Assembly (NCBI RefSeq): GCF_013185065.1
Contig: NZ_JAAVTO010000019.1
Location: forward strand, 1 to 42,413
Direction: 5' to 3'
Source of the DNA: Adlercreutzia sp. ZJ473
GTDB lineage: Bacteria; Actinomycetota; Coriobacteriia; Coriobacteriales; Eggerthellaceae
DNA length: 42,413 nucleotides
The position numbers and the translations under genes were made by a program. The notes under the pieces were generated by a model. It was not told the DNA's origin. It did not search any database and saw only the letters and a program-made list of their open reading frames with translations. Shown in pieces: positions 15,690-39,439 of the stretch. Each line of letters opens with the position of its first letter. Position 1 is the stretch's first letter.

Positions 15690-15910
15690 GTTCATGGCAG
15701 AGGAGCAGCCCTCATCAGTAGCCTTGGAGACACGTCGAGCAACGTCAAGGTGAAAGGGTAGGCTGCCGAAGGCCGTGCGGACGCTCAAATCCGCATGGAC
15801 CTGGGGCGCGGCAGAACATGTCGCGCACTGTCGCGTAAAGCGGAGAGCTGCCGTGGTCGAGCGCCAGCTCCCTGTGACGCCCAGCCATGGCGAGGCTTTC
15901 CACGGAAAGG
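15690..15910 (+). promoter_or_regulatory. Lysine riboswitch (L box) with Shine-Dalgarno-sequestering platform
   Basis: Leader of the NhaC-type transporter. It carries L-box core strings in the right order: AGAGGAGC near 15700, TTGGAGA at 15724, AAGGTGAAAGGG at 15747-15758, GCTGCCGAAG at 15762-15771, CTGGGG at 15801 and ACTGTCGCG at 15827. Stem P1 can form between ATGGCAG (15694-15700) and CTGCCGT (15848-15854). A short hairpin CTTTC-CACG-GAAAG (15896-15909) covers the ribosome site. The P1 3' strand overlaps CCGTGG (15851-15856), which can instead pair with CCACGG (15900-15905). That suggests a translational OFF switch: lysine keeps P1 closed and the ribosome-site hairpin forms. The aptamer is recognised by pattern; the platform is inference. 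The AT-rich stretch 15640-15680 probably contains the promoter. Confidence 0.85.
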
Positions 15911-30526: not shown

Positions 30527-30600
30527 TGGCTGGGGTACCAGGATTCGAACCTAGATAGCTGGTACCAAAAACCAGAGTCCTGCCGTTGGACGATACCCCA
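30527..30600 (-). tRNA. tRNA-Gln (anticodon TTG)
   Basis: Acceptor stem TGGGGTA/TACCCCA with discriminator G and encoded CCA. Anticodon stem CTGGT/ACCAG with loop TTTTGGT gives anticodon TTG. The T arm contains GGTTCGAATCC. Confidence 0.95.
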
Positions 30601-30620
30601 AGGGCTTCCTCATGCGCAGG

Positions 30621-30696
30621 TGGTGGGCCGTGAGGGAATCGAACCCGCGACCTTGGGATTAAAAGTCCCCTGCTCTGCCAGCTGAGCTAACGGCCC
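30621..30696 (-). tRNA. tRNA-Lys (anticodon TTT)
   Basis: 76 nt with encoded CCA. Acceptor stem GGGCCGT/ACGGCCC, D arm TAGCTCAGCTGGCAGAGC, anticodon loop CTTTTAA (anticodon TTT), T arm GGGTTCGATTCCC. It lies 20 bp upstream of tRNA-Gln and is probably cotranscribed. Confidence 0.97.
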
Positions 30697-37715: not shown

Positions 37716-37955
37716 TATGCCATCCCGAGCGCGGCTGCCCCCTTACGTCGTCCTGAGCAGGTCGCCCTCCCCTATGTCATCCCAAGTGAGTCGACGCCCG
37801 CCGTGTCATCCCGAGCAAGCCGCCCCCCGTAGCGCCCCGAGCGAGAATGCTCTTCATGTCATTCCGAGAGAGTCGCCGCCCTTACGTCGTCCCAAGTGAA
37901 GCTGCCCCCCCCCCGCGCGTCATACTGAGCGAGCGAAGCGGGTCGAAGGATCTGG
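37716..37955. repeat. Array of about eight degenerate 28-bp GTCATCCCGAGC-type units
   Basis: Units start near 37716, 37744, 37772, 37802, 37829, 37855, 37884 and 37919, with cores such as GTCATCCCGAGC, GTCGTCCTGAGC, GTCATCCCAAGTG and GTCATACTGAGCG separated by C-rich spacers (one is C10). The last unit is a full repeat arm ending GGTCGAAGGATCTGG. Confidence 0.75.
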
Positions 37956-38035
37956 TCCCGGGCACAGCGCGCCCGCGTGCGCATTCCGCTCGCAGCCAGA
38001 TCCTTCGACTCCGCGCCCTGCGGGCGCTCCGCTCA
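37919..38035. repeat. Dispersed palindromic repeat interrupted by IS110
   Basis: Left arm 37919-37955 (GTCATACTGAGCG... GAAGGATCTGG) faces right arm 37996-38035 (CCAGATCCTTCGACTCCGCG...GCTCCGCTCA). The right arm's expected final bases, AGGATGAC, are missing here and appear instead at 39400-39407, on the other side of the insertion element. Confidence 0.75.
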
Positions 38036-38050
38036 AACGCTCCTATAACG

Positions 38051-39145
38051 TCAAGGGGCAGTTCGCGCGGGCCCGCCGTCGGCGCCGGAGGCGCCCGCGA
38101 GACGCGCGAGGTCGCGCCTGAGGGCATGGAACACCTGGCGCGCGATGTAGCGCTTGAGCATGCGGGTCGCCTCCCTCTTGGTCTTGCCCGAGGCCATCCG
38201 CGCGGCGACGAAGTCCCTCGACTCCCCCGGGGAGCGCATGCGGCCGATCGCTATGAGGTAGAGCGCGGAGTTGGCCCGCCTGTCCCCCGCGAGGCTCAGG
38301 CGGTGCCTGTCGGTCCTGCCGCTCGATACGGGCACCGGGCTCGCCCCGCACAGCGCCGAGAAGGACGCCTCGCTCGCGAGCCTGCCGGGGCTCGCGCCCG
38401 CGCACAGGACGAGCGCCGCGGCGCACTGGGGCCCCACCTGGGGCAGCGCGCGCGTGGCGGGGGCGAGCTCGAGGGTCATCGCGTCGATCAGAGCGCCGAG
38501 CTCCGCGGCCTCCCCGTCGAGCGCCCGGACGCGCCGGGCGACCGAGCGCAGGGCGGCCTCGGCGGCACGCTCGGCGTCCAGGGGCCCCTCGCCGGGGGCG
38601 CGCAGGGACGCGCAGGCGCCCACCAGCTCCCTGGCGGGCAGCGCGCGCAGCCTCGCGCGCATGCGGTCGGGCGCCGCCGCGACGAGCGCGTGGAGGGAGT
38701 TCCTCGCGGCGGTCCGCGCCTTCACGGCCCCCTCGCAGGCGACCCTCAGGGCGCGCAGGCCCTCCACGTCCCCCCGGCGGTCCTTCGCGGGGCCGTGCGC
38801 CCGCCCGGAGAGGACCGACGCGGCGGCGTGGTAGGCGTCCATCTGGTCGCTCTTCCCCCGGCGGCGCCGCTCGGCCCTGTCGGGCCAGCTCACCTCGACG
38901 ACGGGCGCCCCCCGGCCCTGGGCGTAGGCGCACAGGCCCGCCCCGTAGCCGCCGCTGCCCTCGACCCCCAGGGCGCGCAGCTCGCCGAGGCCCTCGAGCC
39001 ACGAGACGAGCTCGGCGCAGCCCCCGCCGTCGGCCGCGAAGAACCTGCACCCGAGCTGCGCCCCCGTCGCGTCGACGGCGGCCGCGCAGTGGCGGTCCCT
39101 GTGCGTGTCCGCTCCCCCGACGACAAAGCGTCTCTCTTCTGCCAT
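38051..39145 (-). CDS. IS110-family DEDD recombinase (transposase)
   Basis: 364 residues. The N-terminal RuvC-like domain shows the DEDD residues D13 (GADTHRDRH), E62 (GVEGSGGYG), D100 and D103 (KSDQMDAYHAA). A coiled-coil middle (105-225) follows, then the C-terminal transposase_20 domain with LPQVGPQCAAALVLCAGA and PVPVSSGRTDRHRLSLAGD, where S274/S275 is the position of the catalytic serine. Unusually Ala/Arg-rich, consistent with adaptation to a high-G+C host. ATG 39145 is preceded by AAGGAG. All key residues are present, so it looks active. Confidence 0.95.
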   Translation of the reverse strand: MAEERRFVVGGADTHRDRHCAAAVDATGAQLGCRFFAADGGGCAELVSWLEGLGELRALGVEGSGGYGAGLCAYAQGRGAPVVEVSWPDRAERRRRGKSDQMDAYHAAASVLSGRAHGPAKDRRGDVEGLRALRVACEGAVKARTAARNSLHALVAAAPDRMRARLRALPARELVGACASLRAPGEGPLDAERAAEAALRSVARRVRALDGEAAELGALIDAMTLELAPATRALPQVGPQCAAALVLCAGASPGRLASEASFSALCGASPVPVSSGRTDRHRLSLAGDRRANSALYLIAIGRMRSPGESRDFVAARMASGKTKREATRMLKRYIARQVFHALRRDLARLAGASGADGGPARTAP

Positions 39146-39164
39146 TACGGGCTCCTTCCCGAGA

Positions 39165-39386
39165 GGGCGCGCAGGGGGGTCGGCCGGGACGATCCTATAT
39201 GAGTGCGGCTGGTGGCGAAGCTCCTACGAGGCCACCGCCCCGACCCGCCTGCGCGGGTCTGCGAGGGGCCCCGCCCGAGCCGGCGACAAGCCTGAGCTAG
39301 GGCATGCGCGACGCGCAGCCGGGATGACACCGTGTCAGCCGGGGGCGGGGCCCCGCCTTCCCTGCATGATACGCCCGGGAAGGCGA
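39165..39386 (-). ncRNA. Candidate bridge RNA of the IS110 element
   Basis: In the 5' end of the element, transcribed toward the recombinase gene. 5' stem-loop CGCCTTCCC/GGGAAGGCG (39385-39354). Target-binding loop closed by GGGGCCCCGCCC/GGGCGGGGCCCC (39354-39343 with 39276-39265), holding TGTCATCC (39329-39322) and GCTCAGG (39297-39291). Donor-binding loop closed by CGCAGGCGGGTCGG/CCGACCCCCCTGCG (39253-39240 with 39183-39170), holding TAGGAGC (39226-39220) and ATATAGGATC (39200-39191). The guides match the flanking target and the element's own ends. A TATATAAC box at the very end of the element would start the RNA near 39386. Confidence 0.8.
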
Positions 39387-39439
39387 CTCCATGTTATATA
39401 GGATGACATGGGAGGATGGCGCAGCCAGCGCTTAGCGCT

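Follow-up and report, generated by a model that had tools for sequence, protein, structure and literature searches.

An IS110-group insertion sequence with a predicted bridge RNA in a dispersed palindromic repeat of Adlercreutzia sp. ZJ473

Introduction

The mechanism by which IS110-group insertion sequences are directed by a bridge RNA has already been described (Durrant et al. 2024, PMC11208160; Siddiquee et al. 2024, PMC11187229). IS621 of Escherichia coli (PMC11208160, PMC11208158) possesses a DEDD/serine recombinase, an RNA in its left end composed of a 5' stem-loop, a target loop and a donor loop, a CT core and handshake bases. It inserts in repetitive extragenic palindromes, and its promoter is assembled at the joined ends. 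Here we describe a locus of the gut-type actinobacterium Adlercreutzia sp. ZJ473, on the minus strand of a 42,413-nucleotide stretch of DNA (contig NZ_JAAVTO010000019.1; "the window" in the following), that very probably represents an intact IS110-group insertion sequence together with its bridge RNA.

The locus resembles IS621 in all these features and in the order of its guides, the promoter at the joined ends being predicted. However, it is distant from IS621 in sequence (IS621 was reached by a profile and not by a single-sequence search), its RNA region comprises ~220-230 nt in comparison to 177 nt in IS621, its target is a different repeat and its right core is TT. With ISEc21 and seekRNA elements (PMC11187229) it would share a circle with a joined-end promoter, whereas the targets of those elements are IS3 transposase genes and their RNA is described as a shorter seekRNA.

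Results

Guides and fold of the putative bridge RNA

All four guide segments are present in the RNA region in the order 5'-left target guide (LTG)-right target guide (RTG)-left donor guide (LDG)-right donor guide (RDG), and all four matches are exact (Table 1), just as claimed in the original prediction, which had been made from the sequence alone. Because the guides had been picked by eye, the 222-nt RNA was subjected to 20,000 dinucleotide-preserving shuffles and the guides were counted in each of them: 18,701 shuffles contained no guide, 1,285 one and 14 two, and three or four guides were found in none.

The limits of the guides required small corrections, except for the LTG, whose identity with the left target plus the first core base was exact as proposed. 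GCTCAGG, proposed as RTG, is indeed complementary to the right target with the core, but its last G belongs to a handshake guide (at the equal position, the Gordonibacter copy described below carries CGCTCAGG). TAGGAGC equals the right end of the element as claimed for the LDG, although it ends two bases short of the 3' end. As for the RDG, ATATAG complements the left end, whereas the "ATC" that starts its proposed counterpart ATCCTATAT lies in the target flank, and its matching RNA bases are better accounted for by the handshake guide and one neighbouring base.

Such handshake pairing after strand exchange was reported by Hiraizumi et al. (PMC11208158). The two bases of the donor loop that follow the core-pairing AG read GA if the core of the target is preceded by TC (window and Gordonibacter elements) and TG if it is preceded by CA (more distant relatives L047, L049, L050, L052 and L054). 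Judged by sequence, these two bases, formerly read as guide, are better read as handshake guides, which would explain why the RDG had seemed to extend past the core into the target. The GA/TG change is supporting rather than decisive evidence, as the split follows two clades.

The RNA region folds into a more stable structure than shuffled sequences do, with z -2.68 and a single shuffle in 200 that was as good. In a constrained fold in which the guides were kept unpaired, they lie inside two loops with closing stems of 12 bp and 7+7 bp, in agreement with the originally proposed stems of 12 and 13-14 bp. The three-module fold (5' stem-loop, target loop, donor loop) is common to the window element, the Gordonibacter element and relatives with 40% identical recombinases. 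Note that MAFFT alignment of the window and Gordonibacter RNAs puts the donor-loop stem wrongly, and the stems were therefore compared via separate constrained folds. No Rfam family matched over the bridge RNA region.

Table 1. Coordinates of the element, its parts and two other features in the window (guides and modules of the RNA are predicted).
Feature	Position	Strand	Basis
IS110-group element (left core CT + body, 1,365 bp)	38037..39401	-	five-copy relative and uninterrupted repeats
Element proper (body without left core)	39399-38037	-	same junction rule as five-copy relative
Left junction core dinucleotide CT	39400..39401	-	target TGTCATC / CT / left end ATATAAC
Right junction core dinucleotide TT	38035..38036	-	right end TAGGAGCGT / TT / target GAGCGG
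IS110 recombinase, 364 aa	38051..39145	-	Pfam, NCBIfam, profile match to IS621, catalytic residues
Bridge RNA region, predicted extent	39165..39392	-	folding z -2.68 and constrained fold
5' stem-loop (GCCUUCCC...GGGAAGGC) of bridge RNA	39355..39384	-	folding, constrained fold
Target-binding loop, closing stem 12 bp	39265..39354	-	constrained fold
LTG TGTCATCC	39322..39329	-	exact match, left target + first core base
RTG GCTCAG + first handshake base (next base C)	39291..39297	-	complement of CTGAGC
Donor-binding loop, closing stem 7+7 bp	39169..39254	-	constrained fold
LDG TAGGAGC	39220..39226	-	equals right end 38045-38039
RDG ATATAG, then handshake GA (+ further T), as ATATAGGAT	39192..39200	-	complements CT+ATAT of left end
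TTGACG, -35-like box in right end	38049..38054	-	sequence; on circularisation would face left-end TATAAC (39398-39393)
Right part of target, palindromic repeat pair (GAGCGGAGCGCCC...GGATCTGG...CAGTATGACG)	37918..38034	-	sequence and repeat searches
Lysine riboswitch	15690-15858	+	Rfam RF00168, 91.7 bits
Two adjoining tRNA genes	30530-30696	-	Rfam

Recombinase

The protein encoded by the element matches two Pfam domains, both over the gathering score: the RuvC-like DEDD domain PF01548 (DEDD_Tnp_IS110, 1.7e-15) at the N-terminus and PF02371 (Transposase_20, 3.8e-12), with the catalytic serine, at the C-terminus. The NCBIfam IS110 model NF033542 gave E 4.5e-38 and 131 bits; this is under the cut-off of 140, which fits a distant branch of the family. 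A single-sequence search of solved structures returned no match, and a profile built from six relatives retrieved the IS621 transposase (8wt6, 2.6e-13) and ISCro4. The reading frame is unbroken and all five catalytic residues are present: D13, E62, D100, D103 and S275 align with D11, E60, D102, D105 and S241 of IS621. Among the genome contigs, the single protein found no match, and a search with a two-sequence alignment found five Gordonibacter loci only. Four further relatives are encoded in viral contigs, and many with <50% identity in plasmids.

Relatives and covariation of guides

Gordonibacter sp. Marseille-P2775 (LT827128.1) carries five near-identical copies of an element with a 58% identical recombinase at five places. 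It shares the repeat target and the RNA architecture with the window element. In all five copies the left junction is TGTCATC-CT-ATGGGAC and the right junction is CATAGGAGCGT-CT-GAGCG, with one shared repeat as target. The left end is CTATGGGAC in comparison to CTATATAAC in the window, and the RDG is altered to match: ATATAG faces CTATAT in the window and CCATAG faces CTATGG in Gordonibacter, with 8 of 8 matches in each case if handshake bases are included. In L047, L048 and L052, the RDG ATCAG likewise faces the left end CTGAT.

The LTG follows the target as well. It matches at 9 of 9 positions in Gordonibacter, at 8 of 9 in L054 (ACACCAAC), L049 (TTGGGGAC) and L050 (TTTCCGTC), and at 7 of 9 in L046 and L055. 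Relatives whose guides track other targets possess recombinases 40% identical to that of the window. For ten elements, with the scan confined to the target-loop region, own guide-target pairs gave 75 matches, whereas permuted pairs averaged 59 (fraction 5e-6). When each of the six lineages was represented by a single element, the fraction was 1/720, the lowest attainable for this number of lineages. Homologous loops thus track their targets and ends, a check on which the bridge RNA assignment had been made to depend.

Two observations on related loci may be added. The elements L047, L048, L042 and L044 are located in or beside apparent IS3-type transposase genes (judged by eye from the flanks), as has been reported for ISEc21. 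Furthermore, a locus of the Gordonibacter genome (L078, C1:1463313) consists of a decayed left end and a bridge RNA remnant with an altered LTG (GTTGTCGTT) and had no recombinase match.

Junctions, core and target repeat

The left noncoding end comprises 254 bp (39399-39146), lies upstream of the gene and holds the RNA, and the right end comprises only 14 bp (38050-38037); both are intact. The boundaries originally placed were close, but had to be shifted slightly in the light of the five-copy relative (Table 1). The agreement of the five Gordonibacter copies at both junctions establishes CT as the core; CT is also found in all uninterrupted repeats listed. The window element has CT on the left and TT on the right, T being second in all cases. 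TT is also found at a right-end scar of a same-genus genome, G002 (C5:57362), and may be the donor's own core; TT cores are tolerated by IS621 (PMC11208158).

The target TGTCATCCTGAGCG (also written as TGTCATCCTGAGC) forms the border of a dispersed palindromic repeat, which is often arranged in inverted pairs ~112 bp apart. Pattern searches revealed 9 copies in the ZJ473 genome (which may be an undercount, as this is a draft in 119 contigs), 151 in G002 and 185 in Gordonibacter, and none with the reversed pattern as control. Contig C5 of G002 matches the region beside the window element and contains an uninterrupted repeat whose left flank is identical, CCTCCCGTGTCATC-CT-GAGCGGAGCG. This is likely to be the empty site, although the presence of several repeats in the region keeps the assignment from being certain.

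No complete sigma-70-like promoter was detected in the integrated left end. If the ends were joined, they would bring together TTGACG - 15 nt - TATAAC in the window element and TTGACA - 18 nt - GACAAT in Gordonibacter, the arrangement published for IS621 (PMC11208160, PMC11208158).

Scars at other repeats

Three repeats contain a short piece of the left end, TGTCATC-CT-ATATAACATGGAGTCG, followed directly by the repeat's own AAGGATCTGG: two in the ZJ473 genome (C42:19268, L002:1501; C22:15774, L003:1501) and one in G002 (C5:57775, L142:2276). The G002 site corresponding to the C22 scar is an ordinary repeat. The sequence GGAGTCG, at which these scars stop, is present both in the left end of the element and in the right arm of the repeat, and a deletion between the two would yield such a scar. 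The Gordonibacter left end does not contain GGAGTCG, and no such scar was found in that genome, where the matches amounted to no more than resemblances over five bases and a single decayed left end. On these two grounds the left-end scars look like footprints of past insertions. Gene conversion between repeats could also have produced them. It is very improbable that they (repeat half, CT, ATATAACATGGAGTCG and the rest of the repeat) are generated repeatedly by the bridge recombinase itself and not by ordinary deletion between the GGAGTCG copies; if they were, the element would leave a fixed mark, and the repeat copy would no longer be usable as a target. That the solo left ends are tiny non-autonomous elements was rejected, as no right end adjoins them.

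A right-end scar, CCCCTTGACGTTATAGGAGCGT-TT-GAGCGAGCG, is present in G002 at C5:57362 on the minus strand (L009:1501-1529), the remaining element being gone. It sits on the opposite arm of the repeat pair adjoining the place that matches the window insertion. A site-specific inversion might have put it there, but independent insertions would be simpler.

Discussion

Fold, gene, ends, core and target all agree with the IS110-group bridge RNA as described by Durrant et al. 2024 (PMC11208160), which supports the original assignment. By analogy, the element would excise as a circle, in which the joining of the right end to the left end would place the -35 box beside the -10 box and allow the RNA to be transcribed. 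Its target loop would pair with TGTCATC-CT-GAGC of the repeat and its donor loop with the joined ends (...TAGGAGCGT-core-ATATAAC). The recombinase would then cut beside the core, exchange strands and insert the element, and the core-adjacent handshake guides, GA of the donor loop and GC of the target loop, would pair with the partner DNA after the exchange.

Several observations weigh against this interpretation. The element is present in a single copy in its own genome, and mobility of this copy is suggested through relatives, scars and uninterrupted repeats. The cores of its two junctions are unequal. The predicted joined promoter has a spacer of 15 nt to TATAAC, or of 17 nt to the weaker TAACAT. 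The LTG matches of L047, L048 and L052 are weak (5-6 of 9), and the LDG match, besides stopping before the core, concerns a guide that is nearly invariant among relatives and thus carries little covariation.

It is rather unlikely, though well worth considering, that the bridge RNA is read correctly but the element is inactive, i.e., a fossil whose guides were kept through recent ancestry. The single copy, the two same-genus genomes without a full copy, and the other repeats that hold short end scars and not copies would fit this possibility. However, the reading frame, the catalytic residues and both ends are intact, the four guides are exact, and a same-genus genome has end scars elsewhere in the same repeat cluster, all of which argues against a fossil.

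The target repeat is common in the lineage, and an 8-base copy of it in the RNA region could therefore have another cause than guiding. Nevertheless, the idea that the loop-target matches are due to chance, or that the RNA region merely holds a copy of the repeat, is hardly credible, as the four matches occur on the predicted strands and in the predicted order, as no shuffle reached three of them, and as in relatives with other targets the guides vary along with targets and ends. Equally implausible is an IS1111-group element with guides in reversed order: the protein family is the same, but here the RNA lies upstream of the gene, the target guides follow the IS110 order (PMC11208160, PMC11187229), and the left end is long and the right one short, whereas IS1111 elements have the RNA downstream and a long right end.

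The favoured interpretation, an intact element with its bridge RNA, leaves the known mechanism unchanged. It would add a well-supported natural bridge RNA whose sequence is remote from that of IS621, and for which both a close relative in several copies and a defined, abundant target repeat are at hand. Such a locus may be usable as an additional system for asking to what extent the guides, the core and the handshake bases may diverge. It also suggests that the targeting of extragenic palindromic repeats recurs in Actinomycetota.
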